Source: a virus
Reading direction: 5' to 3' (one strand)
Length of the DNA stretch: 51,683 nucleotides
IMG/VR virus record: IMGVR_UViG_3300032050_000195
Location: 1-51,683 of that record
Shown piece by piece: positions 6,714 through 35,098 of this stretch. The position numbers and the translations under genes are program-made. The stretch's first letter is position 1; the number at the start of each line of letters is the position of its first letter. The notes below the pieces were generated by a model. That model saw nothing but the letters and a program-made list of their open reading frames with translations, ran no database searches and was not told the origin of the DNA.

Positions 6714-8054
6714 ATGTCTTTTGAAAGTGTTACATTCTTATATACAGATACTTTACACGAAATTATAGATAATATTTCCGGACCAGTTGCTGAGGCACTG
6801 TTAAAGGCACAAGGTGATAGATTTGTAAAGAATCCTTTTAAAATTGAAGTGGTCGATGTTTCTAAAACACATAGTAGATTTTGGGTGACTTTCAAAGATC
6901 ATAAACAAAATATGAAGATTAAGGCATTTATAAATTCAATTTTGCCTAATTCATTCACCGATCATCAGATTTGGGAATTTATTCAAGAATACAATAAACT
7001 AGCACTTGGTAAAGAAACTCAAGCAGAGACTAAGGTCACTTATAATAAAATTGAACCAAGAGCTTTTAGATTCGAACCAAAAGATATAAGAAATACATTT
7101 ATCTCACTAGTAACACAGACTTATCCACACGGTCATGAAGAAGAAGTTATGAAGTTTATGCCTCAAGATCTTAGTAAAGACGAGTTTGGCAATTACTACA
7201 AAATAATAGGTAAATCTCAGACTATGTTTACTTCACATCTTGACACTGCTGACAGAACTAAAAGTTATGTTAACTTGGTGAGTGTTGAAAGAGATGGAGA
7301 TGAGATAATTATGACTGACGGAACTAGTATTTTAGGAGCTGATGATAAAGCAGGTGTTACTGTTATGCTCTACATGATGGCTCATAACATACCGGGTATT
7401 TATTACTTTTTTATAGGTGAAGAAAGAGGTGGTATAGGTTCTTATAAATTGGCAGCTGCTTTTGATAAATACACTCACTTAAAAGATGTTAAAAGATGTG
7501 TTTCGTTTGATAGAAGAAACTACTTTTCAGTGATCACTAAACAATCTTATAGACAATCCTGTTCAGACGAATTTGCGCAAGCTTTAGCTGACGAATTAAA
7601 TAAGTCAGGACTTAGTTTATCACTCGACCCAACTGGTATTTATACTGATTCGGCTTCATTTATTGATGATATACCAGAATGTACAAATGTATCTGTTGGT
7701 TATTTCAGTGAACACACAACAAAAGAGTGTCAAAATATTTCATACCTTGAAAGATTAGCAAAAGCCTGTCTATCTGCAAATTGGGAAGAACTTCCAACTG
7801 TTAAAAAAGTAGGCTTTGATGAAGAAATTTTAAGGAAGTATAAAGGATTCTTAGCTGAATTAAAGGCAAATGTATTTAATTTAGAAGTTAGAATGGTCAA
7901 TGATTTTGGAGATGCTATAATTAAAATAGAAATAGAACCAGATTTAGAATTGGTTTTTGAAGAGCTAAAAATAATAAGCAGACTACTTACAAAACATAAA
8001 ATGGACCCAGATGTCACATTTGATAATCAATATATTAAAATAAATTTAAAGTAA
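6714..8054 (+). CDS. M20/M28/M42-like zinc peptidase with extra N- and C-domains
   Basis: 446 residues. The core (about 125-355) has the metal-ligand pattern of co-catalytic zinc amino/carboxypeptidases: SHLDT (His175, Asp177), GADDKAG (Asp210/211), GEE (Glu236/237), FDRR (Asp266) and SEHTTKE (His334). An N-terminal part of about 120 residues and a C-terminal alpha/beta part of about 85 residues are specific to this copy. The related gene at 21248 lacks this N-terminal part. The substrate is unknown; family members cleave peptides or deacylate small molecules. It ends in a TAATG overlap with the next gene, so the two are co-translated. Confidence 0.72.
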   Translation: MSFESVTFLYTDTLHEIIDNISGPVAEALLKAQGDRFVKNPFKIEVVDVSKTHSRFWVTFKDHKQNMKIKAFINSILPNSFTDHQIWEFIQEYNKLALGKETQAETKVTYNKIEPRAFRFEPKDIRNTFISLVTQTYPHGHEEEVMKFMPQDLSKDEFGNYYKIIGKSQTMFTSHLDTADRTKSYVNLVSVERDGDEIIMTDGTSILGADDKAGVTVMLYMMAHNIPGIYYFFIGEERGGIGSYKLAAAFDKYTHLKDVKRCVSFDRRNYFSVITKQSYRQSCSDEFAQALADELNKSGLSLSLDPTGIYTDSASFIDDIPECTNVSVGYFSEHTTKECQNISYLERLAKACLSANWEELPTVKKVGFDEEILRKYKGFLAELKANVFNLEVRMVNDFGDAIIKIEIEPDLELVFEELKIISRLLTKHKMDPDVTFDNQYIKINLK

Positions 8055-16211: not shown

Positions 16212-17522
16212 GTGAATTATAATAAAGAAATGAGTAGATTGGTTAACTTAAATAGTGTTGATGATAAAATTTTAGACGAGATATTCAAAGATGATATTAT
16301 CATTTATGAAGATGTTCAAGGTTCTAAAATTTGGGTTAACTCAGACTCTTCTGGGTTTACAATAAAACCGAAGTCTATTTCAAACGAACCTATCAACATG
16401 GTTGATCTTGCTATGCAAAATTATTATAATTCTGCGGTAAGATATTTTAATACATTTGATAGCAGAATAAAGGGTCTAATGCCTAAAAATTGGTGGTTTT
16501 GTTTTGAGTATTTTCCAGATAATCAGCCTGCAAATATTGAGTATAATAGACTTCCAAAAAATTCACTAGTACTCGCTTCTATTTGCAAAGGGGGTAAATA
16601 TGAATATTCAATTGATGAACTAAGAGAATACTCAAGATTGTTTGGTGTAGATTGCCTTCCTGTAATATTTGAGGGTAAATTAAGTGACACGATGAAAGAG
16701 GCAATTAAATACTTTCTGAATACTTCTGAGAAGGATTTAGAGTATGTATTTGGTGAGAAATCTTTTGCATTCTTCTTCTACAAAATATTAAATCCTCAAG
16801 TTGAGGGGTCTTTTTTGATGGATAGTGACTTTCAAAAAAACTTACAGAAAATAGTTATACAAACGTCTAGTAGTAAGTCAAATTTTGAAATTTTGAATCC
16901 ACTCTATCAGAGAATCTCAAATGAGAACTCTACTGAGTTTGTGGAGGTATATACACTAATATTAGTTAGTTTTCTTAATTTCTGCCAAGGTGTAAATATT
17001 GATGATTTAAAAATCAAAGGTCAAAAAAGAGATGAGGCTTACATATATCTAATTTGTAAATTGTTTAATATGTATGTTGATGAGGTAAAAGACGATCTTC
17101 TTAATTTTGACTTCACTATACCTCAGTTTTTTGATAAAGAAAAGTTCAAAATAAATAAAGAACTAATATCAAATAAGTTAACCAAAGAAATTATAACCGA
17201 ATCTGATAAGTTAGAATATATTTTTAAAGTACTTCTTGGATCACTTTCCAAAAAAAGAAAGAAACCTATTGGTGTATTTACAGACAGAACTTTAATTTTA
17301 TTTAACTCTTTTATTGAAAAAATTGATAGAATACTTGACTTATACTTAAATAAGTTAAGAGAAATCGATATTACCAGAGGTGGACTTTTAGACTTTGGAG
17401 ACTTCTTCGATTTAAAATTTGACAGAGATGGTTCTGGTCAGGTTTACCCAGATGTCTATGATACATTTGAAAAAGAACCAACAAGTGTAGAAAAGAAAAA
17501 AGGTAAATTTTATCCAAAGTAA
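16212..17522 (+). CDS. Ligase-like protein with an altered nucleotidyl-Lys motif
   Basis: 436 residues from a GTG start; the ATG at 16230 is an alternative. Residues 30-140 resemble the adenylation domain of phage RNA/DNA ligases: a motif-I-like YEDVQGSKIW, then FCFEYFPDNQ ... EYNRLPKNSLVLASI, matching the motif III/IIIa region. In motif I (usually KxDG) the lysine position is Asp and the Asp is Gln, so covalent nucleotidyl transfer looks impossible. The C-terminal two-thirds are helical and unrecognised. It could be a nucleic-acid-binding derivative. The ligase relation is pattern-based and tentative. Confidence 0.45.
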   Translation: MNYNKEMSRLVNLNSVDDKILDEIFKDDIIIYEDVQGSKIWVNSDSSGFTIKPKSISNEPINMVDLAMQNYYNSAVRYFNTFDSRIKGLMPKNWWFCFEYFPDNQPANIEYNRLPKNSLVLASICKGGKYEYSIDELREYSRLFGVDCLPVIFEGKLSDTMKEAIKYFLNTSEKDLEYVFGEKSFAFFFYKILNPQVEGSFLMDSDFQKNLQKIVIQTSSSKSNFEILNPLYQRISNENSTEFVEVYTLILVSFLNFCQGVNIDDLKIKGQKRDEAYIYLICKLFNMYVDEVKDDLLNFDFTIPQFFDKEKFKINKELISNKLTKEIITESDKLEYIFKVLLGSLSKKRKKPIGVFTDRTLILFNSFIEKIDRILDLYLNKLREIDITRGGLLDFGDFFDLKFDRDGSGQVYPDVYDTFEKEPTSVEKKKGKFYPK

Positions 17523-17569: not shown

Positions 17570-18808
17570 ATGATTTTAGAAAAGAAAATTTGCCTATCAA
17601 GTAGAATGCTGAAAGTCTCACCAAGACACAAAAAGCAAGCATTGCAATTTTTACCAGATTGTCTACTTGAGATTTCAAAACAAAAATACTTCAATTACAA
17701 AGAGCAGAAACTCAAATCTGCCTATCTTATCGACCTTGTTCACAATCTGATTTTAAAATATTACTTTAAGAAAGAAAATTCATTCTCTCTTTCTGCTATG
17801 ATATTAAAAGATAAATATGGATACCTTTATAACTATTATATTAATTACTTAAAGGATTTAAATATTATTAAACTTCAAAAAAATTATTTAAAAGGATCTA
17901 ACGCAAGAGTCTATTCTTTGAATGATGATATACTTATAAATAAAATTCACAGATTCAATAATGAGGATAAAGTTTTGATAAAAAAGTATATTACAAAACA
18001 CTTACAGTTTGAGCTTGATAAAAATAATATAATCAAAAAGTACATAAAAGAGAAACTAATAGAACATCTATTTCATGTTGAGATTGATTATTCTCGTTCA
18101 ATATTTTTTCTAGACTCTTTAAAGAATGATGATATAGATATATACAATCGAAATAAGTACTCTGTTGAGACAATTAATCAAAAGAATATATTTTACCATT
18201 TTGACTCATACGGTAGAATGCACACAAATTTTACAATATTAAAGTCATTTATAAGAAAAAATTGTCTTCTTATTGATGGGGAAGAAACTTGTGAGATTGA
18301 TATTAAAAATAGTCAACCGCTATTTTTATCTAAATTGATAAAAGATGCTGACTCTAGATGGATTGACGAAAATGAGTTCAATTTGTTTAATATACTTGTT
18401 AAAAACGGTAATTTTTATCAATATTTGATTGATAATTTGAATCTCGTAAGTAAAGAGGATGCAAAAAATTTAACATATAAAGTTCTTTTTGGTCAAAATA
18501 GACCGAACTCTAAATCCGATATTAACTTTATCAAGTTATTTCCAACAATTCATAATTTTATAAAAATATACAAAAAAGAAAAGAAAGATTATAAAATATT
18601 AGCTCATGATCTACAAAAAGCTGAGTCTAATTTAATTTTTAATCAGATAATTAAAAAGATATCAGATGAAAATCCAGATATAAGAGTAATCACGGTACAC
18701 GATTCTATAATTGTTCAAAAAAAATGGAAAGATTTAGTATCGACTATCTTTTTTGATGAGATTTATAATCATTTTAGTATAACTTCTAATCAAGAAATCA
18801 ATATATAA
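17570..18808 (+). CDS. Minimal PolA-like (single-subunit polymerase) palm protein
   Basis: 412 residues. The C-terminal half carries family A polymerase palm motifs in order. YGRMHT followed by a conserved Arg (from residue 214) corresponds to TGRLSS. EIDIKNSQP (Asp244) is motif A. AKNLTYKVLFG (298-308, Lys299) closely matches the O-helix pattern AKxINFGxxYG of motif B. VHDSI (His377-Asp378) is motif C, with Ser in place of the usual Glu, as in T7-type RNA polymerases. No exonuclease domain is present, and the N-terminal half is helical. It could be a DNA, RNA or template-independent polymerase; related proteins occur on plasmids and phages without assigned function. The phage also has a family B polymerase gene (24788). 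Confidence 0.65.
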   Translation: MILEKKICLSSRMLKVSPRHKKQALQFLPDCLLEISKQKYFNYKEQKLKSAYLIDLVHNLILKYYFKKENSFSLSAMILKDKYGYLYNYYINYLKDLNIIKLQKNYLKGSNARVYSLNDDILINKIHRFNNEDKVLIKKYITKHLQFELDKNNIIKKYIKEKLIEHLFHVEIDYSRSIFFLDSLKNDDIDIYNRNKYSVETINQKNIFYHFDSYGRMHTNFTILKSFIRKNCLLIDGEETCEIDIKNSQPLFLSKLIKDADSRWIDENEFNLFNILVKNGNFYQYLIDNLNLVSKEDAKNLTYKVLFGQNRPNSKSDINFIKLFPTIHNFIKIYKKEKKDYKILAHDLQKAESNLIFNQIIKKISDENPDIRVITVHDSIIVQKKWKDLVSTIFFDEIYNHFSITSNQEINI

Positions 18809-18982: not shown

Positions 18983-19519
18983 ATGCTAGACCTTAGAAAT
19001 TCTGAACTTTCTTATATTTTAGTGTCAGCTTCTAATCTCAGAAGCTTAAGTTCTTATTTGTATTCGAAGGACTATTATCTAGTTGAAATAAAAGGATACT
19101 ATGAAGGTATTTTTGAAGATTCTGTATTAGCTTTTACTAATCTTGAACCATCTGATTTAAAAGAAGACTGTAAAAATATAATGAATTTTTTTGATCAAGA
19201 TTGTGTTATTGTAAAATATAAAAATCAAAACAACGCTTTTAAGATTTTCAGTGATGGTCAAGAAAAACCTCTTGGAATTCTTTTGTATAATACAGATTCT
19301 AAAAACAAGTCTTATATTCATGATGGACTTTCTTTTTCATTTGTTGAACAACAATTATATTATTTTCCAAAAGAGAAATCAGACTTTAAAGAAGGTATGG
19401 TTGTAGAATTTTTGAATAATAATAAATGGGTAGAAAAAAAGGTAGTTGATCCAGTAAATGAGTTTGAAAAGATTTATAAACTCTTAATTAAATACAATAA
19501 GATTAGAATACCTGTTTAA
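18983..19519 (+). CDS. Unknown protein
   Basis: 178 residues. N-terminal half alternates strand and helix (YILVSASNLRSLSSYLYSK). Residues 75-110 form beta strands (CVIVKYKNQNNAFKIF), and the C-terminal part (EGMVVEFLNNNKWVEKKVV) resembles a small SH3/KOW-like barrel. No catalytic residues recognised. Convergent with cysK, sharing 4 nt at the stop codons. Confidence 0.55.
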   Translation: MLDLRNSELSYILVSASNLRSLSSYLYSKDYYLVEIKGYYEGIFEDSVLAFTNLEPSDLKEDCKNIMNFFDQDCVIVKYKNQNNAFKIFSDGQEKPLGILLYNTDSKNKSYIHDGLSFSFVEQQLYYFPKEKSDFKEGMVVEFLNNNKWVEKKVVDPVNEFEKIYKLLIKYNKIRIPV

Positions 19520-21247: not shown

Positions 21248-22300
21248 ATGGATATTAAAAACAAATTTTTAGAACTAACTAAACTCACCTACATCTACGG
21301 TACAGAACACTTACTTGAAAATCACTTACCTTCTGGATTTGAAAGGGATCAATTTGGTAACTATTTTTATAAAATTGGTGACTCTCAAACTATGTTTACC
21401 TGCCATTTAGATACCGCAACTGATAAAGTGCAAAAAGTAAAACATGTTATTAAAGGTAATATAATTTCAACTGACGGTTCCACAATTTTAGGAGCAGATG
21501 ATAAGGCCGGAATGACTGTACTTCTTTATATGATCGAAAAGAATGTACCAGGACTTTATTATTTTTTTGTGGGTGAAGAGGTAGGTTGTATTGGTTCAAA
21601 CGCTGCATCTGCAATGGACTTCTCCTCATATAAGAGGTGCATATCATTTGATAGAAGAGGATATTCATCAATCATAACACATCAACTTGGTGGAAGATGT
21701 TGTTCTGATATTTTTGCCAATTCTATTTGTAAAGAATTAAAACCTTATAATTTATTTTATGAGCCAGACCCGACTGGAGTCGTGACAGATTCTGCTATGT
21801 TTACTAATCAAATTTCAGAATGTACTAATATCTCAGTTGGATATTTTAAAGAACACACAAAGTCCGAATATCAAGATATTCTTTATTTGAGAAAACTCGC
21901 ACAGGCTTGTGTGGAAGTTGACTGGGAATCACTTCCTTCATTAAGAGAACCTAAAATTAAAGAAGACTTTAGGTCTTGGGGACCTGCAGATGAAGAATTT
22001 ATTGAAGAAGAGATAGAAGAATCTGCTAAAATTAAAGTCACAATAAATGACGTAGAGTATCTTGCCACAATAAAAAGTTCAAAAGTTAAAGAAGAGAAGT
22101 ACTTTATAACCAATTGGATCAATAGATCTTCATCATACACTGGGTTCAAAGAAGTTGAATGGGATGGAAAAAGTTGTTATCTCCTATATGATAATTCTTA
22201 CAAAGAGTATATTGGCGAGCGTGAAGAGTTAATTCATGTCATTGATAATTTGTGTGATATTTCAATACACGATTTGAATATTATAAAAAAGTTTAAATGA
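21248..22300 (+). CDS. M20/M28/M42-like zinc peptidase, second copy
   Basis: 350 residues, clearly paralogous to the 6714-8054 product: FTCHLDTATDK, GSTILGADDKAG, YYFFVGEE, SFDRRGYSS, TDSAMF and FKEHTKSEYQD correspond block for block. The metal ligands His, Asp, Glu-Glu, Asp and His are all kept. It lacks the 120-residue N-terminal part of the first copy and has a different C-terminal domain of about 110 residues (SAKIKVTINDVEYLATIK ... start). The peptidase core may serve different substrates in the two copies. The promoter is of host type. Confidence 0.72.
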   Translation: MDIKNKFLELTKLTYIYGTEHLLENHLPSGFERDQFGNYFYKIGDSQTMFTCHLDTATDKVQKVKHVIKGNIISTDGSTILGADDKAGMTVLLYMIEKNVPGLYYFFVGEEVGCIGSNAASAMDFSSYKRCISFDRRGYSSIITHQLGGRCCSDIFANSICKELKPYNLFYEPDPTGVVTDSAMFTNQISECTNISVGYFKEHTKSEYQDILYLRKLAQACVEVDWESLPSLREPKIKEDFRSWGPADEEFIEEEIEESAKIKVTINDVEYLATIKSSKVKEEKYFITNWINRSSSYTGFKEVEWDGKSCYLLYDNSYKEYIGEREELIHVIDNLCDISIHDLNIIKKFK

Positions 22301-22573: not shown

Positions 22574-22918
22574 ATGAAAACTTTTAATAAAAAAAACTTT
22601 TTACTTAATCAAAATCTAATCTCTAGTCAGAATATTGAGGAAGATGGTGTTACTAAATTATCAAAACTACATCACATTAAGGAGTGTTTTTTTAATCTTG
22701 CAGAAAAGTTAGAAGATAAAAATGAGTTAAAGTCTATTTCTGAAATTGTTACTCAGATAGAATTTCAACTTCAAAACGTTTGGAAATTCAATCAAGACTC
22801 AAGTTATCATAAATTCTGGAAAATCCCAAAATGTAGTTGTCCAAAGATGGATAATGAGGATGTATATGGTACAGGTCATCGATATATAAATTCAAATTGC
22901 CTTTATCACGGAAATTAA
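22574..22918 (+). CDS. Cys/His-containing protein of unknown function
   Basis: 114 residues. The helical N-terminal part ends in KFWKIPKCSCPKMDNEDVYG and SNCLYHG, giving Cys, Cys, Cys and His spaced as a possible zinc site. This C-terminal block looks conserved and may be a phage family of unknown role. The start MKTFNKKNFLLNQ partly resembles the shared N-terminal pattern but lacks the Glu. It precedes the glycosylase gene by 11 bp, so they are probably co-transcribed. Confidence 0.6.
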   Translation: MKTFNKKNFLLNQNLISSQNIEEDGVTKLSKLHHIKECFFNLAEKLEDKNELKSISEIVTQIEFQLQNVWKFNQDSSYHKFWKIPKCSCPKMDNEDVYGTGHRYINSNCLYHGN

Positions 22919-22929
22919 AATTTAAAATT

Positions 22930-23715
22930 ATGCCAGAAGCAGCTGAAATTAGAATTATGTCTGAGTTTGTTACTCAAAACTCTACAGGAAAAAACTTTAA
23001 GAAACTATATTTTGTAGAAAAGGGAAACATCCCTTTTGATCAAAATTTTGATAGCTTTACTATAGAATGTGATTTCTACGGAAAACAAATTCAACTAAAT
23101 TTAAAAGGTTCTACAGATATGAACATCTCAATCTTTATGGGTATGAGTGGAAACTGGAAATTAGTACCTACTGAACATTGGAGTGAGACTAAATACATTA
23201 GACTTAGAATGGACAGAGAAGATGGAATGAGTATTTTACTTTATGGTGGATATCTTGGTCCCAAATTTAAAGTTGGTGGATTCAATACTAAAAGAGGTTT
23301 TGATATAGTAAAAGATTTTGATAAATTTAAAGATAACATCGTCAAAAACTTAACAACAAAAGTTTTTGAAAAATCTATTTGTGAAGTTTTATTAGACCAA
23401 CGATACTTTGACGGCGTTGGTGCTTATCTATGCTCAGAAATATTAGGTAGGTTAGATATAGATCCTTTTGATAGATTCAATACTTTGAGTAAAAGTCAGT
23501 TAGAAGAACTTTTCAATATGACAAGATACTGTATAATAGAGGCATATAATTATGGTGGTGGAGAATTAAAAGATTGGCAAAATCCATTCGGTAACTCGAG
23601 ACTTGATGATTGGATTCAGTTTTATGGAAACCGTAGAGTTTGTTATAGGCAAGAATTTGGGAAAAGAAATATCTGGATACAGAAAAAGTACAAAAAGGTA
23701 ACAGTATTAAATTAA
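22930..23715 (+). CDS. Fpg/Nei-family DNA glycosylase without zinc finger
   Basis: 261 residues from the ATG at 22930. This start is chosen because Fpg/Nei enzymes need Pro directly after Met as the nucleophile, and here the protein begins MPEAAEIR (Pro2, Glu3). The helix-two-turn-helix is present as LLDQRYFDGVGAYLCSEILG, with Ala where Fpg has the conserved Asn of GxGN. The C-terminal zinc finger is reduced to one Cys (RRVCYRQ), so DNA binding must use a zincless finger. Such enzymes excise oxidised bases and nick the site. Role in the phage (repair or control of modified bases) is not determinable. Confidence 0.8.
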   Translation: MPEAAEIRIMSEFVTQNSTGKNFKKLYFVEKGNIPFDQNFDSFTIECDFYGKQIQLNLKGSTDMNISIFMGMSGNWKLVPTEHWSETKYIRLRMDREDGMSILLYGGYLGPKFKVGGFNTKRGFDIVKDFDKFKDNIVKNLTTKVFEKSICEVLLDQRYFDGVGAYLCSEILGRLDIDPFDRFNTLSKSQLEELFNMTRYCIIEAYNYGGGELKDWQNPFGNSRLDDWIQFYGNRRVCYRQEFGKRNIWIQKKYKKVTVLN

Positions 23716-24787: not shown

Positions 24788-26329
24788 GTGCTAGTAGATA
24801 CTCAATATTTAATCAATACAAGAAAGTTAGTAGTTAGTTATGTTGATAAAACCGGTGATATTAAATTAAAATATTATGACTGGCAGAATCCTCTTAAATA
24901 TGTAACTTGTGAAGATAATGACCTTCAAAGACATCCTGATTTTAAGTCTTGGGATGGAAAAAATGTTAAACAGATCGAAGTCAATCATCCTGATAGATAC
25001 GCAGTTTATGAGTTCTTAGATGCTCTGCCGGATAAAGAAAAAGAGGAAATTTTTGAATTCAATCTACCAAAGATTTTTTTCATAGATATTGAGACTGAGA
25101 TAATCGATGGATTTCCTGAAGCTGCTGATATCAAAGATCCAAATGGAAATGTCACTAAAGAAGGAGCAGCTACTCAAGTTCTCTCAATTTCAATTGTATA
25201 TGACGATAAGATAATTCTTCTTGGATTAAAAGATATGCCTCAAGATATGCAAGATCGTATTTTAAATAATACTAATAAGTATTTTGAGAAATCTAAAGTT
25301 GAATATAAATTCAAATACATCAAATACGAAGATGAATTTGATATGATGTATAATTTCTTTTACAAGATGGTTCCTAAAATGCCTCTTATTACAGGTTGGA
25401 ACTTTTTAAACTATGACTGGCTATACTTAGTAAATAGAGCAAGAAAGATTACAAAGTGGGTTAATGGTAAAGAGATAAAAATAGACCCCGCAGTATCCTC
25501 ATTCACCAAAAGAATGAATAAAGTTTGGTCAACTGAGTATGAAGTTCCCGCTCATAGAATGATTTTTGATTACATGCAACTTTATGAGATCTGTGATACA
25601 TCTATTAAAGTTAAAGAAAGTTCTTCGTTGGACTTTGTTTCTAATAAATTAGTTGGAGTGGACAAGATTAAATATACTGGCTCTCTTCAGAAATTATATG
25701 AAGATGACTTTGAGACCTTTATGTACTATAACGCGGTTGACTCTGTTCTTGTTCAGAAAATACATGAGGCTAGAAATTATATTTCAATTATTTTCGCGAT
25801 TTCTGCCCTTGCTAAAATTCGTGTAGTTGATATTGTTTCACAAATGAATAATGCTCTTGGTTCACTTGCCATTACAGAGGGAGTCTTGAGGAATAGATTC
25901 CGTGACATGGAGAATATCATCTTGTTTAAAGATGAAAATGCTGTAAGAGGTAGTGAGTCTGGAATCGCAGGCGGATGGGTTAAAGATCCAGTTGTTGGAA
26001 TGAACAAGTGGGTTTGCATCTACGATTTTGCCTCACTTTATCCCACAACTCAGTTACAGTTTTTCATAGCTCCTGAGACTTTTGTTGGTGTAAAAACTGA
26101 TCAGGAAAATGATTACTGTTTTAATGGCAATCAAAGGATCAAAATAGATTCAGAAAAACATGTTGTTTGTGTTAATGGTGTTGTTTTCGAGAAGAGATAT
26201 TCACCAACTTTAAAAATGCTTGATGATGTCTATGCAGACAGAAAGAAGAATAAAAAGATTATGATGTCTAAAAAAGAAGAATATAAGGCAGTCATAGATG
26301 AAATAAAAAGATTAGAATCCGAATTATAA
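24788..26329 (+). CDS. 43: Family B DNA polymerase, N-terminal half (split gene)
   Basis: 513 residues from a GTG; an in-frame stop at 24779 excludes an earlier start. The proofreading exonuclease is complete: FFIDIETE (Exo I, Asp100/Glu102), TGWNFLNYDW (Exo II) and YNAVDSVLV (Exo III). Palm motif A, YDFASLYP, is at about 412-419. The protein then ends after the first fingers helix (MLDDVYADRKKNKK ...). Motif B, motif C (DTDS) and the thumb are missing and are not found elsewhere in the window. The split falls in the fingers, where some T4-like phages are also known to carry separate polymerase halves, so a second gene should exist elsewhere in the genome. Confidence 0.85.
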   Translation: MLVDTQYLINTRKLVVSYVDKTGDIKLKYYDWQNPLKYVTCEDNDLQRHPDFKSWDGKNVKQIEVNHPDRYAVYEFLDALPDKEKEEIFEFNLPKIFFIDIETEIIDGFPEAADIKDPNGNVTKEGAATQVLSISIVYDDKIILLGLKDMPQDMQDRILNNTNKYFEKSKVEYKFKYIKYEDEFDMMYNFFYKMVPKMPLITGWNFLNYDWLYLVNRARKITKWVNGKEIKIDPAVSSFTKRMNKVWSTEYEVPAHRMIFDYMQLYEICDTSIKVKESSSLDFVSNKLVGVDKIKYTGSLQKLYEDDFETFMYYNAVDSVLVQKIHEARNYISIIFAISALAKIRVVDIVSQMNNALGSLAITEGVLRNRFRDMENIILFKDENAVRGSESGIAGGWVKDPVVGMNKWVCIYDFASLYPTTQLQFFIAPETFVGVKTDQENDYCFNGNQRIKIDSEKHVVCVNGVVFEKRYSPTLKMLDDVYADRKKNKKIMMSKKEEYKAVIDEIKRLESEL

Positions 26330-29358: not shown

Positions 29359-30558
29359 ATGAAAATTTTAAATTTCTTTGACTTTATTTTTGAGAATTTT
29401 AAAACTATACAAGTGCCTTTTCAGTACTGTGAAGAGTTTGAATCTTTGATAAATCAAATAAATAATCCAATTTCTGGGGCTTTTATGAATTTACGACTAA
29501 AACCCACCGATATTTCACTTATTAATATTGGAGATCAAGATGATTTTGTGACATTTACTACATCGACAAAGCTATCACAACATTTCAAATCAGAAGATGA
29601 AAAGACACTTAGAACACTTATATCACCTTTATCTAGAAACACCGAAATTTACTCAAAGAATAGAACTTCGATAAAAATAGGCAGATTGATTAGAAAATTA
29701 TTTGGGTCAAAATTCTCTGATTCGGAGATTGAAAAATTTGTAAATCAATACAAATCTATTGTAGATAAAAAACTACTCAAATTTGAATTGTGGGATGGAT
29801 ATAAAATTCAAAATGGATACTGTTCTAAGAATTACACTTATGATGCCCCTAGTTCTAACCCACTTTTAAATTCTTGTATGAACGATGAATTACATCTCAT
29901 AGACTTTTATCAATATGCTCCTGTGAAATTATTAGTGTTACTAAATAATGAAGGTCACATTTTTGGAAGATCGTTAATATGGCAGACTAATAGAGGAACA
30001 TTTATGGATAGAGTTTATGTAGCTTTTGATTCTGATTATTACAAATTTACAGATTGGGCTACAAAAAATAACATAATTTATAAATCAAAGAATCAAAGTG
30101 GACCTTTAATTGACTATGTTGTAGGCGGAAAAACTACCTGGTTTCCAATGAAAGTAGAACTTAAATTCAATATAGACGAATATAGTAGAGAGGATTTTAC
30201 TGATACAGTTAGGGATATTCCGTATATGGATACCTTTATTTATGGTCAGAAGAATATTCTAACTAATTATGAGCCACTTGAGGATAAATATTATATATTG
30301 ACTGATACTGATGGATATCCTTTAGAAGTTATACCACATTTTGATATTAAGGGTCGAAGAATTCGCCAAGATGAACTAGATGATTATGAGTGGTCAAATA
30401 CTCAGAAAGGATGGATACATGCAAAAGACGGGTGTTATGTACAAGCAGTTCAAGATTTTTTATCTTTTGACTATTTAAAAGACCCTGTTAATGGATTCAC
30501 ACGAAAGCCAGGAACTAATCCGATATCTCCGAATACTTGGATTAAAAATGTAAATTAA
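29359..30558 (+). CDS. Unknown protein, paralogue of the 31400 product
   Basis: 399 residues with start MKILNFFDFIFENF (IFE before Asn), fitting the targeting-like group. From about residue 100 it matches the 31400 product: IGRLIRKLFGSKFSD, then FVNQYKSIVDKK, LLNSCMND, LLVLLNNEGHIFGRSLIW and MDRVYVAFDSD. The conserved Asn-Ser-Cys-Met and GRS(L/I)xW...DR(V/I)Y blocks suggest a shared enzymatic or binding core, but I recognise no fold. First of three tightly packed plus-strand genes whose products all have targeting-like starts. Confidence 0.65.
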   Translation: MKILNFFDFIFENFKTIQVPFQYCEEFESLINQINNPISGAFMNLRLKPTDISLINIGDQDDFVTFTTSTKLSQHFKSEDEKTLRTLISPLSRNTEIYSKNRTSIKIGRLIRKLFGSKFSDSEIEKFVNQYKSIVDKKLLKFELWDGYKIQNGYCSKNYTYDAPSSNPLLNSCMNDELHLIDFYQYAPVKLLVLLNNEGHIFGRSLIWQTNRGTFMDRVYVAFDSDYYKFTDWATKNNIIYKSKNQSGPLIDYVVGGKTTWFPMKVELKFNIDEYSREDFTDTVRDIPYMDTFIYGQKNILTNYEPLEDKYYILTDTDGYPLEVIPHFDIKGRRIRQDELDDYEWSNTQKGWIHAKDGCYVQAVQDFLSFDYLKDPVNGFTRKPGTNPISPNTWIKNVN

Positions 30559-30565
30559 TATATAC
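30555..30565 (+). promoter_or_regulatory. TTAATATATAC box, 5-nt spacer
   Basis: Overlaps the stop of the preceding gene (29359-30558). Core ends 5 nt before the ATG at 30570. Confidence 0.45.
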
Positions 30566-30569
30566 CCAT

Positions 30570-31403
30570 ATGAGAGTTTTAAACTTTGAAAAATATCAAT
30601 TAGCAGAAGATTTATCTAATTTCATAGCTAATCCAACTATTTTAGAGTCTGCTGAAAAAAATAGCCAAATAGATAATATTTTAAAAAAACTCTCTCAGGA
30701 TCTAAAATTTAATTATGGTCTTGTTTTTACATTTGGTGTTGGTGTTAGAGTAATGTACCCAATTGTTGAAGAGTTAATAAAAAATGGAAATTTAAAAGTA
30801 GAGGCAACAACTGAGAATATAGTTTTAGTTTGTATTGCTGCACTTACAATTACCTATTTAGAAGAGTCAAAAAATAGTGCTGGTGATACAGAAGTTCCTT
30901 GTGATTGTGAAGAAAAAAAGTCTGATTGTGAAATTTGTGGTGGAACGGGAATGATTAAAAGTAAAGTTTCTAAAAGAGACGCTCGTACTATTCTTGAAGA
31001 ATTAAAATTGAGAGGAATAGGCAATGGCATAGTAAAAAAAATGGTTGAGTGTTTCAAGTTTTTAGGATCAATTCTTAAAACTTTATTTAGAAATACTCCC
31101 TATGTAATTAACGGTCTTATAGATATGTTGGCCTATACTGCGATTCTTGTTCCGGCTATGAATGGTATAAGTGCCATTGTGGGTAAATATGATTTGACTA
31201 TTGATAGTCTTATGGGTAACGCCGCCGCGATTTCTCTTGGTATTACTACGTTTTTAGCGAAATATGGATTTGACTCGTTGGTTAAGAAATTCAAAGATAA
31301 ATTTGGATTTGATACTAAGTCTTTGGATGTACCAACTGTTGTTAAACCTTATGATACTGAAAATGATGAACTAGAAGGTAACAAATTAATTAAAGAGCAA
31401 TGA
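30570..31403 (+). CDS. Membrane protein with DnaJ-type CxxCxGxG motif
   Basis: 277 residues. Start MRVLNFEKYQLAED (LAE before Asp) fits the targeting-like set. Hydrophobic segments near residues 50-66, 75-92, 183-205 and 212-232 predict several membrane passes. Between them, CDCEEKKSDCEICGGTGMI (about 111-129) holds CxxCxGxG plus extra Cys, a probable zinc-binding hairpin. The protein lies between the two paralogues at 29359 and 31400 and overlaps the latter by ATGA. A membrane role in DNA delivery or lysis timing is possible but only inferred. Confidence 0.62.
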   Translation: MRVLNFEKYQLAEDLSNFIANPTILESAEKNSQIDNILKKLSQDLKFNYGLVFTFGVGVRVMYPIVEELIKNGNLKVEATTENIVLVCIAALTITYLEESKNSAGDTEVPCDCEEKKSDCEICGGTGMIKSKVSKRDARTILEELKLRGIGNGIVKKMVECFKFLGSILKTLFRNTPYVINGLIDMLAYTAILVPAMNGISAIVGKYDLTIDSLMGNAAAISLGITTFLAKYGFDSLVKKFKDKFGFDTKSLDVPTVVKPYDTENDELEGNKLIKEQ

Positions 31404-33712
31404 TAAAAAAATATTCTGATTTCAAATATTTTTTTTTATTTGAATCACTTCTAAAGATTGATAAAGATTTACATTTAATAATCTCAACACTTTCAACTAA
31501 AGATCCTGTAGCAAAAATGCTACTTAGCTTAATAAATCAAGATATCACAACTAATGTTAATTATTTAAAGCTCGCAGATAAAAACGATGATGTTAAGTTT
31601 GTAAATGACACACAAGTCAAGAGATTTGTAGATTCGGGTCAAGATCCATTCGATAGGGCAACTAATAGTGCAAAAATAGGTAGAACTGTGAGGCAAATAC
31701 TAACATCCAATGGTATTTCTGTGACAGACCATCAGATTGAAACATTTGTAAACAATTACAAAAATGCCTGGGATAAAAAACACAATAAAAATCAAGAGGG
31801 TTTTCATTTAGTATCTGGTGATGAAATTAAAAACTGGTATCTAGAATCAAATTATGTTCCAGGTGGTGGCACATTAAATAATTCATGTATGAGGTATGAT
31901 AGCTGTCAGAAATATTTTGAAATATATTCACAGAATCCCGAGGTTTGTCAACTGTTGATATTATTAGATGACAGGGATAGACTACTTGGTAGATCAATCT
32001 TGTGGAAGTTAAAACCAGGAACTGGAAGAAAAGACTACTATTTAGATAGAATCTATACGAGATTCGATAATGATGTTGAAAAGTTCGCAGAATGGTTTAA
32101 AGAGTTTTTAAAAGTTGATTCTGAAAGTCAAGATTTCAATGCTCATTTTCTTGGTAATACTCGAGGTCTTAGAGTTCAGTTAAAAAATTGGAAATTTAAA
32201 TTATTTCCATACATGGATACATTCTCAGTTTTAGACTATGACTCTGGTCAACTCATGACTTATGATGGAGTTGACTCGTCAAAACTTCAATTTCATATCC
32301 AGAATACTGGTGGATATCCGTCCGTTCCATCTCATGAATGGTCTGAGGCTTATCAAAATTGGTTTCATGTTGATGACTGTGCTTGGATTGAAGATAAGAG
32401 TGACTATTATCCAAAGGAAGATTGTATAAAAGATTACCAATTAAATTGGATTTTAAAGTCTGATTCAATTTATTCTGAGTATTATGGTAATTATATTCAA
32501 AAGTCAACTGCTGTCGATCTTGAAAATTTTGGATTAGTCGACAATCGAGATATAGTTGAAGTTTATGATGAAGTTATAAATGGTCAAATAAAAAAACCAA
32601 AGAAATTTTTGAAAAGTAAACTAAATGATTCAGATTACAAAAAAGTCGAAATAGGTTATGGATATAAATGGGTAAATAAAAAGTATTTAGTTTATGATGC
32701 GGTGAATCATGAGTTTATAATTCAAGATGAGGATTTTGAAGATAATTATACTAAGTTTTACTTTTTACCTCAGTCACCTATTTCAACATTAGAAAAATAT
32801 TTCAGTATTAGTGAAATAGATAGAAATTATGAGTGTTATGGAATTAGTGATGAATACACTCAGACTCCATTTATTTCTAGACTATATAGTGATCTTAGTA
32901 ATGAAACCGGTTATTATGCTATTAAAGAAGTTATTGAAACATTTTCATTGGAAAGTTCAGAGAAATTTGTTGTTGTTAAAACCAGCGACTTTTCCAGATC
33001 ATTTAGAGAGATGTGTTACACTCATACTTTAGAAATTTTAGATAATATTAAGAGTATCAATTCCGAATCTTTGAAGAAAAAATTATCTGATGTACACGAA
33101 GATTGTATGGCAAAATCGCATAGTTATAGACAACTCAACTCAAACTATGAAATGATGAAAGACTATGGTAGTTACTTAAACTATTTTAATTCTACAATTT
33201 CTAAAATGTTCAAAGAAGAAAAAGTATTTGAAATTTTAGAGGGAGAAGAAGTGGTTAATAAATTTCAAAGTTGGATTAGAGAAAATGCGCGGTCTATTGA
33301 TTTTATAGTTAATTATAGAAAAACTAATCAAGAGAATTACAGTATTCAAAGAGATCAAAGTGACAATGAACAAAAAGAATTAATCAGATTATTTATCGAT
33401 ACTTATAAATATCAAATTATCTATTTTTCATATTGGTTGATACTGATGGATGATAGAAGTCATGCTGATGATAAATTGACCACTTTGAATAATAAAATGA
33501 AATTTGATACGAACTTTATAGTAAATTATTTTTGTAGATATGATGAAATATCTGGAGAATTTGCTCAAACAATCTCTGACATAAGATCATCTGTTACTAG
33601 AAAGTTTAACTATCAACCTTTGTTTCAAGAAATGAGTCTGTCTGTTTATGATGAAAATTTTGATAAAATTATGACTATCTACAATGACTTTTTATCAAAA
33701 CTAAATAAGTAA
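31400..33712 (+). CDS. Large unknown protein, paralogue of the 29359 product
   Basis: 770 residues. Start MIKKYSDFKYFFLFES (LFE before Ser) fits the targeting-like group. Residues about 90-290 parallel the 29359 product: KIGRTVRQIL, FVNNYKNAWDKK, LNNSCMRYD, LLILLDDRDRLLGRSILW, then YLDRIYTRFDND. The extra 450 C-terminal residues are mostly helical with no recognised domain. It is translationally coupled to the membrane protein gene. Size, paralogy and N-terminus make a head-packaged protein injected early plausible, as with T4 Alt. No ADP-ribosyltransferase motif was found. Confidence 0.65.
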   Translation: MIKKYSDFKYFFLFESLLKIDKDLHLIISTLSTKDPVAKMLLSLINQDITTNVNYLKLADKNDDVKFVNDTQVKRFVDSGQDPFDRATNSAKIGRTVRQILTSNGISVTDHQIETFVNNYKNAWDKKHNKNQEGFHLVSGDEIKNWYLESNYVPGGGTLNNSCMRYDSCQKYFEIYSQNPEVCQLLILLDDRDRLLGRSILWKLKPGTGRKDYYLDRIYTRFDNDVEKFAEWFKEFLKVDSESQDFNAHFLGNTRGLRVQLKNWKFKLFPYMDTFSVLDYDSGQLMTYDGVDSSKLQFHIQNTGGYPSVPSHEWSEAYQNWFHVDDCAWIEDKSDYYPKEDCIKDYQLNWILKSDSIYSEYYGNYIQKSTAVDLENFGLVDNRDIVEVYDEVINGQIKKPKKFLKSKLNDSDYKKVEIGYGYKWVNKKYLVYDAVNHEFIIQDEDFEDNYTKFYFLPQSPISTLEKYFSISEIDRNYECYGISDEYTQTPFISRLYSDLSNETGYYAIKEVIETFSLESSEKFVVVKTSDFSRSFREMCYTHTLEILDNIKSINSESLKKKLSDVHEDCMAKSHSYRQLNSNYEMMKDYGSYLNYFNSTISKMFKEEKVFEILEGEEVVNKFQSWIRENARSIDFIVNYRKTNQENYSIQRDQSDNEQKELIRLFIDTYKYQIIYFSYWLILMDDRSHADDKLTTLNNKMKFDTNFIVNYFCRYDEISGEFAQTISDIRSSVTRKFNYQPLFQEMSLSVYDENFDKIMTIYNDFLSKLNK

Positions 33713-33769: not shown

Positions 33770-35098
33770 ATGACCTCGTCATTAGAAAAAGTTTTTTTTA
33801 ACTATATTATAAAGAATAAAAAGTACTTCGAAATTGTTAAGCCTTTCTTTTTTAGAAATTCTGAAATTCAATTTATTTATGGAATCCTCAGAGACTATAT
33901 GACTAAAAATCAAGATGCTCAAATTCCTACACCAAGACAGATTCTAGATATGGTCACTCTTGAAGATAAAGAAGGTGTAATCACAAAAGAAATTCTAAAA
34001 AGCGTTTTAACAGATAATCTAAAAGATTATGATGAAAAGAATTTTATAGAGCCGAAATTTAATGCTTGGGTTCTTTCAAATAGAATTAAAGCAGGAACAG
34101 TTGATATAATTGACGAAACTAGAAACTTTGATAATATTTCAGATTTTGATTCAGCAATAGAAAGAGCAAATAAAATTCGAGCAATTGTAGATGATATGTC
34201 TTCTACAAACTTTGTTGATGATGATGACCTAGGATCAGACTTCGATGAACCTGAACTACACATCCAAGATAGTTCAAGGTTTAAGATCAAATCAGGACTT
34301 GAAACCCTAGACCATATTTTAGGTGGTGGATGGGATATTGGTACACTTAATTGTATCATGGCAGAGACTAATAACGGAAAATCGTTATGGATGCAAAATT
34401 TTGCAGTAAAAAGCGCAGATGCTGGTTATAATGTACTATATGTCACTCTTGAGATGAGTGAGCGTAAAGTTCTGAAAAGACTAGGTGCTATGCGTTTAAA
34501 AATACCAATAAATGACTATGATACAGTAAGTAAAGATACTGAATTAATTAAGAAAAAGATTAAGTCTTTAGGGTCAATGAAAGAAGGCGGTGACCTATTT
34601 TCAAATAAAGTTGGTAAAATTTATACTAAGTTTTGGGCGGCTGGAACAGCCACTGTAAATGATTTCGATAACTATATTCAAAAGATACATCAAAAGAGGG
34701 GTATCAAGTTTGATATGATTATTGTTGATTATATCACACTTGTTGCTCCTATAAAAGGGCTAGGTGATAATCTCTACGTCAAAGGAAAACATCTAGCCGA
34801 AGGATTAAGAGCATTAGGTGCGAAATATAAGTGTCCGATTGTAACAGGTGTTCAAGTATCAAAAGATGCTTGGAATGCTTCTGATATTACACTTGAGAGT
34901 GTTCCTGAGAGTAAGGCAATAGCTGAAACTGCTGATACATTTTTTGCTATTATAAGAACAGAAGAAATGAAACGTCTTGGAATTTATAGATTTAAACTTT
35001 TAAAACAAAGGGATGGAGACTTTTTGAAAAGTCAAATAAAGTTGAATTTGAATTCTACTTATTTGACTTTAGAAAATGACCAATTTCTGGATAACTAA
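33770..35098 (+). CDS. 41: Replicative DNA helicase, DnaB/T4 gp41 type
   Basis: 442 residues. The N-terminal part (1-150) is the primase-interacting helical domain. The RecA-like core begins at KSGLETLDHILGGGWDIG (about 173). Walker A is AETNNGKS (about 202-209), with Ala replacing the usual first Gly. LYVTLEMSERKV is motif H1a, DMIIVDYITLV (about 320) is Walker B and VTGVQVSKDAW is H3. A KQRDG block near residue 415 matches the H4 region. It encircles the lagging strand at the fork. Ordered with nrdA and nrdB downstream in a replication/nucleotide block. Confidence 0.9.
   Translation: MTSSLEKVFFNYIIKNKKYFEIVKPFFFRNSEIQFIYGILRDYMTKNQDAQIPTPRQILDMVTLEDKEGVITKEILKSVLTDNLKDYDEKNFIEPKFNAWVLSNRIKAGTVDIIDETRNFDNISDFDSAIERANKIRAIVDDMSSTNFVDDDDLGSDFDEPELHIQDSSRFKIKSGLETLDHILGGGWDIGTLNCIMAETNNGKSLWMQNFAVKSADAGYNVLYVTLEMSERKVLKRLGAMRLKIPINDYDTVSKDTELIKKKIKSLGSMKEGGDLFSNKVGKIYTKFWAAGTATVNDFDNYIQKIHQKRGIKFDMIIVDYITLVAPIKGLGDNLYVKGKHLAEGLRALGAKYKCPIVTGVQVSKDAWNASDITLESVPESKAIAETADTFFAIIRTEEMKRLGIYRFKLLKQRDGDFLKSQIKLNLNSTYLTLENDQFLDN

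Follow-up and report, generated by a model that had tools for sequence, protein, structure and literature searches.

The question raised by the gene at 17570–18808 (plus strand, as are its motifs and domains described below) of the window, the whole 51,683-nucleotide stretch of viral DNA that was analysed, is what a minimal PolA-like polymerase would do in a phage that has other replication genes. The window also encodes portal, prohead protease and major head proteins, a sigma factor, a class I ribonucleotide reductase and a DnaB-like replicative helicase (33770–35098, plus strand; phrog_19, E 3.8e-66). Motifs, alignment, a structural model, Foldseek comparison and a profile match all point to a 412-residue minimal family A enzyme resembling the TV-Pols, or transposon-virus polymerases. 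The kind is already known, and the interest of the locus lies in its huge-phage setting and in the natural pair formed with a second PolA.

Sequence blocks and predicted fold

The reading frame is intact, comprising 412 codons from ATG to TAA. The four palm blocks noticed in the sequence-only reading are all present and in the order given there, namely GRMHT (residues 215–219), DIKNSQP (244–250), AKNLTYKVLFG (298–308) and VHDSI (376–380); in 200,000 shuffled versions of the protein this order did not occur once. Comparison of the protein with Pfam, NCBIfam, PHROGs and PDB sequences gave nothing above chance, so that its recognition by eye as a polymerase went beyond the standard libraries. In an alignment of 77 members, R216, D244, S248, Q249, P250, Y283, K299, F320, P325, Q349, E352 and D378 are invariant, the invariance of NSQP being partly by construction because the retrieval patterns contained NSQP or GRxHT. 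The [N/S/T]SQP form is kept in all 14 profile-retrieved Bacteroidota copies outside this alignment; in one phage copy (L115) the sequence is NCQP. Among close relatives pN is 0.15–0.18 against a pS of 0.67–0.82, and the gene is thus under purifying selection.

Motif A (D244-I-K-N-S-Q249-P; 18299–18319), identified from the alignment and the TV-Pol profile, would provide the first catalytic Asp and has Gln at Asp+5, the sugar-gate position, in 77 of 77 members. The Pol I residue at Asp+5 is Glu710, which excludes ribose; this equivalence rests on motif spacing, as the profile alignment has two gaps there. Motif B, or the O helix (residues 295–308; 18452–18493), has the form [RK]xxxK299xxx[YF]xxx[FY]G and aligns with the PolA pattern RxxxKxxxFGxxYG, with K299 in all 77 members and Arg or Lys at 295 in 76. 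The fingers of TV-Pols are described as having a conserved Asp and RxxxK; the latter element is present here as [RK]xxxK, and in place of a single conserved Asp the same alignment shows only an acidic position, 269. In profile alignments the LQ349xxE352 block (residues 348–353; 18611–18628) corresponds to the Pol I Q-helix (IQGTAAD) and is common to TV-Pols. Motif C (VHD378S; 18695–18709) would contribute the second catalytic Asp, D378 being found in 77 and S379 in 75 of the 77 members. The protein is co-linear with bacterial DNA polymerase I through the equivalents of R668, D705, R754/K758, Q849 and D882 (E. coli numbering). It differs from Pol I in the absence of exonucleases, in having Gln for E710 and in the stretch from P325 to Q349, reduced to 20–26 residues in 77/77 members as against some 60 in the Pol I of the alignment. 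The equivalent Pol I segment helps to hold the duplex primer-template.

The AlphaFold2 model, obtained with the 77-sequence alignment, has a mean pLDDT of 92.2 and a pTM of 0.87. Foldseek comparison with the PDB put family A DNA polymerases on top (7.9e-5; apicoplast DNA polymerase and KlenTaq) and the mitochondrial RNA polymerase POLRMT below them, at modest TM-scores of 0.3–0.4, as expected for a reduced enzyme. The modelled palm and fingers and the two putative catalytic Asp residues place the protein in superfamily A. No exonuclease or linked nuclease domain was seen in the sequence or the model of the 412-residue protein. The description of a minimal PolA-like polymerase devoid of exonuclease thus agrees with the fold, the motif order and both Asp residues; the palm is predicted, and the structures nearest to it are those of family A DNA polymerases.

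The N-terminal part of the model (residues 20–120; 17627–17929) forms a winged-helix-like domain of three helices and a beta wing, the order of elements in this region being helix 50–67, strand 72–75, helices 76–83 and 87–96, and strands 100–104 and 112–117. This domain is predicted to hold DNA, which would replace the missing exonuclease and full thumb. It is followed by a helical region (residues 134–203; 17969–18178; predicted helices 134–149, 157–167, 174–184 and 189–203) that may be equivalent to the polymerase thumb, in TV-Pols a pair of antiparallel helices, and by a beta-hairpin (residues 209–219; 18194–18226; strands 209–211 and 217–219) with the invariant R216 of the GRxHT block, which would touch the template. 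Two-metal palm catalysis, with D244 and D378 as the putative ligating pair, can be regarded as secure by homology, and the incoming nucleotide would be held by K299 and the O helix.

An enzyme using ribonucleotides, either a small RNA polymerase or an RNA primase akin to T7 RNA polymerase, was among the roles suggested from the sequence, and its HDS motif C and DxxGRx[HY] block are indeed shared with T7-type RNA polymerases. Replacement by Gln of the ribose-excluding Glu of Pol I and of the priming enzyme CcPol, and the second rank of mitochondrial RNA polymerases in Foldseek, are in line with this possibility. However, DNA polymerases lead the Foldseek ranking, the T7 RNA polymerase profile scores 16.4, which is the shuffle level, and the protein is half the size of the T7-type enzymes and lacks their large promoter-recognition domains. 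Moreover, its O helix has Tyr/Phe as in DNA polymerases at the position where T7 RNA polymerase, aligned by motif, has Met. The use of ribonucleotides is therefore not favoured, and we consider it improbable.

Relationship to TV-Pols and other reduced family A polymerases

TV-Pols were described by Iyer, Abhiman and Aravind (2008) as predicted primase-polymerases (PMC2579912). They are minimal and possibly ancestral family A enzymes, proposed both to prime and to extend, and occur mostly in small elements or viruses and in mobile elements (PMC2579912). CcPol-MP, which has been assigned to this group, primes with dNTPs on single-stranded DNA (PMC7581432). Four TV-Pols, from Microcystis phage LMM01, two Polaromonas plasmids and one Calothrix plasmid, were picked by their element context and kinship to LMM01. 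In a profile-profile comparison (hhalign) the family of the 412-residue protein matched these four with a score of 39.3, while the maximum in 100 column shuffles was 19.7, and the blocks D[IL]x[NS][CS][HQ], LQxxE and HD are common to both. The TV-Pols in turn matched the Pol I profile with a score of 42.2; the match of the family to Bacteroidota Pol I alone was not significant (22.8 versus shuffles up to 24.8). The link is clear only with the four-sequence TV-Pol profile: the family profile gave nothing above noise among the LMM01 ORFs, the LMM01 TV-Pol taken singly gave no match, a motif regular expression applied to LMM01 found only the ordinary PolA of that phage, and the N-terminal domain alone had no significant match to the N-terminus of TV-Pols. 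On this profile evidence the polymerase belongs to the TV-Pol branch of superfamily A, of which it represents a conserved huge-phage branch.

The genes of the four TV-Pols have a mobile-element context. The LMM01 gene (MAP_030) adjoins a transposase, and a resolvase or recombinase is found near the TV-Pol genes of the Calothrix plasmid and one Polaromonas plasmid. In the 7.2-kb Polaromonas plasmid pW9NP1 (NZ_MG869627) the TV-Pol gene at 37–2497 is followed 10 bp downstream by RepA, a possible minimal replication module.

The window protein shares with TV-Pols the minimal superfamily A core, the conserved hairpin Arg, the two catalytic Asp residues, fingers of the RxxxK type and the lack of an exonuclease, as well as a distribution over mobile elements and viruses that includes Bacteroidota, Planctomycetota and Verrucomicrobiota. 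Unlike the described TV-Pols, in which the N-terminus is all-helical, it has a predicted winged helix there, and a fused or neighbouring D5 helicase was not seen, the neighbours being those among the 25 families listed around bacterial copies. The Gln at Asp+5 is shared with the Calothrix TV-Pol, whereas the Polaromonas and LMM01 enzymes have His. The carriers also differ, being phages of 500–735 kb with a full replisome, while small elements and viruses were the main source of the TV-Pols described. The modelled winged-helix N-terminus, a sugar gate with Gln where Glu is usual, and the loss of the Pol I segment are thus the distinct features of the huge-phage TV-Pol.

Two further groups of reduced enzymes are comparable. 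CcPol-MP and the PolA-SSB primases likewise have a family A core that has been pared down to serve priming in mobile elements (PMC7581432, PMC10061031). However, CcPol is a near relative of housekeeping Pol I, has Glu at Asp+5 (E174; PMC7581432), where the window family has Gln249, and is paired with an OB-fold SSB. The divPolA2 of barbaviruses and Vibrio phages, reported in 2024, is an additional PolA variant that lacks an exonuclease and whose N-terminal domain is unexplained (PMC11348598). It resembles the window protein in its length of about 430 residues, its accessory status beside a regular polymerase, the absence of an exonuclease, the novel N-terminal domain replacing the thumb, its structural matches, which include DNA polymerases as well as mitochondrial RNA polymerases, and a similar GRM...IDGxxTC stretch. 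It differs in motif A (DFKAFE, with Glu at Asp+5) and in lacking NSQP and LQxxE. The profile match, made with one divPolA2 sequence only, was weak (31.5 versus shuffles up to 24.2), and divPolA2 was not retrieved by tblastn with the window protein; it may be a sister group of the window family. A candidate divPolA1, the first gene of immuto 3-5A, scored at the shuffle level and was rejected. Homologues of divPolA2 occur in 266 phage records of Vibrio and Rheinheimera phages, ICP1 included, and are annotated as hypothetical proteins in the matches listed.

Distribution and genomic setting

A tblastn search of annotated phages found six records only, all of them huge phages of 595–735 kb with 31–61% identity, and a search of plasmids found one Hymenobacter plasmid. 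Profile-guided scans of viral contigs gave 130 and 140 relatives, mostly on huge-phage contigs, and a scan of bacterial genomes gave 26, in Bacteroidota, Ignavibacteriota, Planctomycetota and Verrucomicrobiota. Complete carrier genomes comprise 634,780, 636,363, 642,428 and 735,411 bases; in length these agree with the four largest genomes of a published huge-phage study, which were assigned there to the Mahaphage clade with predicted Bacteroidetes hosts (PMC7162821). In a quick tree 56 phage rows, that of the window among them, form one group with 99% SH-aLRT, and a few other viral rows fall among the bacterial ones.

Among Bacteroidota a profile search identified carriers in 16 of 396 genomes, some with several copies, a sporadic pattern typical of mobile DNA. 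Tyrosine integrases account for 10 of the 145 proteins encoded around bacterial copies, and D5 helicase was absent from the 25 neighbour families listed there. Three bacterial loci have a UvrD helicase gene upstream and AAA_24 and DUF3871 genes downstream, and some other neighbours are DNA methylases. Since the Hymenobacter plasmid encodes a replication initiator of its own, the enzyme is not simply a plasmid Rep. This sporadic occurrence, the residence of TV-Pols in mobile elements (PMC2579912) and the prediction that the related huge phages infect the same phylum (PMC7162821) would suit a passenger, the replication gene of a TV-Pol mobile element that once entered a huge-phage ancestor and has no replication role now. 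Such an origin without present function is nevertheless very unlikely given the purifying selection, the well-supported huge-phage clade and the catalytic residues intact throughout; in addition, neither an integrase nor a resolvase was noted next to the copy in the window.

The immediate neighbours of the phage gene are also conserved. A same-strand gene for a 436-residue protein of no known family (16212–17522, plus strand in the window) precedes it in 40/40 loci checked out of 42. This protein had no PDB match and no convincing Pfam match; its N-terminal part, as judged by eye, may be similar to the core of a nucleic acid ligase in which the nucleophilic Lys would be replaced (VYEDIQGS-like). 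The downstream gene (18983–19519, plus strand) codes for a 178-residue protein whose alignment and model (pLDDT 90) indicate a SAM-lyase-like fold, with the T3 SAM lyase structures 8bb1 and 7ock as best matches, and which is probably anti-restriction. Since this neighbour is SAM-lyase-like, the local cluster in the window lineage is not a replication operon and an SSB partner of the CcPol-MP type is not seen in it. A PolA-SSB primase pair formed with the downstream neighbour was ruled out, the modelled fold not being that of an OB-fold SSB.

The anti-restriction function of SAM lyase in T3 and the DNA methylases near some bacterial copies are what might be expected if the enzyme were a nucleic-acid synthesiser of defence or counter-defence, for example of the DRT kind, a role that had also been suggested from the sequence. 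PADLOC, however, applied to nine family members and their neighbours, returned nothing beyond a general PolA match, that of the partner PolA in phages; Foldseek ranks DNA polymerases rather than DRT enzymes first, and the distribution follows integrases, so that the partners are those of mobile elements rather than of defence. A defensive role finds no support here and appears the most far-fetched of the functions considered.

The polymerase had further been described as lying beside a family B polymerase. A PolB gene is present in the window (24788–26329, plus strand), but it is 6 kb away and, by its sequence and comparison with relatives, encodes only the N-terminal half of a split enzyme, and other carriers are devoid of PolB. 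In the relatives searched PolB is split into two distant genes, which in the complete huge phages LR745206, LR756502 and LR756504 are about 100–280 kb apart. No intein-like ends were seen by eye in the half encoded by the window. In LR756511, G002 and G006 no PolB match was obtained; instead they have Pol III alpha. A DnaG-type primase match was found in all five named huge-phage genomes; the first negative result was a failure of sensitivity, because Pfam DNAG_N had missed most of them. These findings ruled out two simple explanations, namely that the enzyme is a primase because the phage has none and that it is the replicative polymerase because no other is present. Because the carriers already have a main polymerase, and most of them a DnaG-type primase, the polymerase is an accessory one in the phages examined.

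In LR756511, G002 and G006 a PolA gene of 409–429 residues, with Glu kept at Asp+5, lies directly downstream of the polymerase gene, with a four-base overlap in two of them. A three-gene unit consisting of the TV-Pol, a Glu-gated short PolA and an ORF of 186–194 residues resembling sigma region 2 by eye was observed in LR756511 (393923–396300), L113 and L115 (7902–10908). Its PolA exonuclease region is apparently inactive, and the unit is conserved across divergent huge phages.

Priming, gap filling and division of labour

Among the roles offered for the enzyme in the sequence-only reading, the most fitting is that of a primase-polymerase, since the protein can be aligned with TV-Pols, which are predicted to prime and in the case of CcPol-MP were shown to do so. 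The pairing of TV-Pol with RepA on the Polaromonas plasmid likewise indicates a replication setting. We therefore give about an even chance to an accessory, exonuclease-free, template-directed DNA polymerase of the TV-Pol type that would start and extend short DNA strands. The DNA product, the de novo start and the site of action are those that we infer from the TV-Pol group and CcPol-MP. The main replisome of the phage comprises DnaB, DnaG and either a split PolB or Pol III alpha, and the enzyme would be an accessory to it. The short strands that it might start and extend, for example at origins, in gaps or where replication restarts, could then pass to the main polymerase or to the partner PolA.

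Several observations count against priming. A DnaG-type primase is present in the five named huge phages, and priming by the TV-Pol is therefore not needed by default; the coexistence of the two speaks most strongly against general priming and in favour of a function in restart, at origins or in gaps. CcPol by itself cannot prime without its SSB (PMC7581432), and the downstream neighbour here is SAM-lyase-like. In 8 of the 14 relatives collected through PolB, these being fragments, the polymerase gene did not turn up, and in the window lineage it is not embedded in a replication operon.

Coexistence with a main polymerase and DnaG would equally suit a primer-dependent polymerase that never starts strands and instead fills gaps or bypasses lesions in repair or recombination, a nuclease-free phage counterpart of host Pol I. 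The UvrD helicase and AAA_24 ATPase genes beside bacterial copies are compatible with such work, missing proofreading is common in repair polymerases, and the possibly related accessory divPolA2 has also been proposed for repair (PMC11348598). Replication initiation is indicated instead by membership in the TV-Pols and by the pair of TV-Pol and RepA genes on a plasmid, and the duplex-holding segment of Pol I is cut short throughout the family. Gap filling is accordingly a serious alternative, to which we would assign something like one chance in three.

If short strands are indeed started by the TV-Pol, a more specific arrangement may be considered, in which the Gln-gated enzyme of huge phages is specialised in starting strands and a separate polymerase receives these for elongation. 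In the lineage with adjoining genes this would amount to a two-gene split primase-polymerase, the Gln-gated TV-Pol starting strands and the adjoining Glu-gated, apparently exonuclease-defective PolA extending them. This proposal is speculative and, as it stands, rather unlikely. The division of labour within this natural pair is directly testable, and the family provides more than 100 sequences marked by a single diagnostic change in the position that governs sugar choice. The occurrence of a conserved TV-Pol branch in the largest known phages, alongside complete replisomes, suggests a new and testable role for TV-Pols.

Elsewhere in the window, a Fpg/MutM-like H2TH glycosylase below the Pfam cut-off, which also matches phrog_21295, is encoded at 22897–23715. 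Two peptidases of the same family, phrog_4191, are encoded at 6714–8054 and 21248–22300, and three large same-strand ORFs (399, 277 and 770 residues; 29359–33712), which had no PHROGs match, lie upstream of DnaB.
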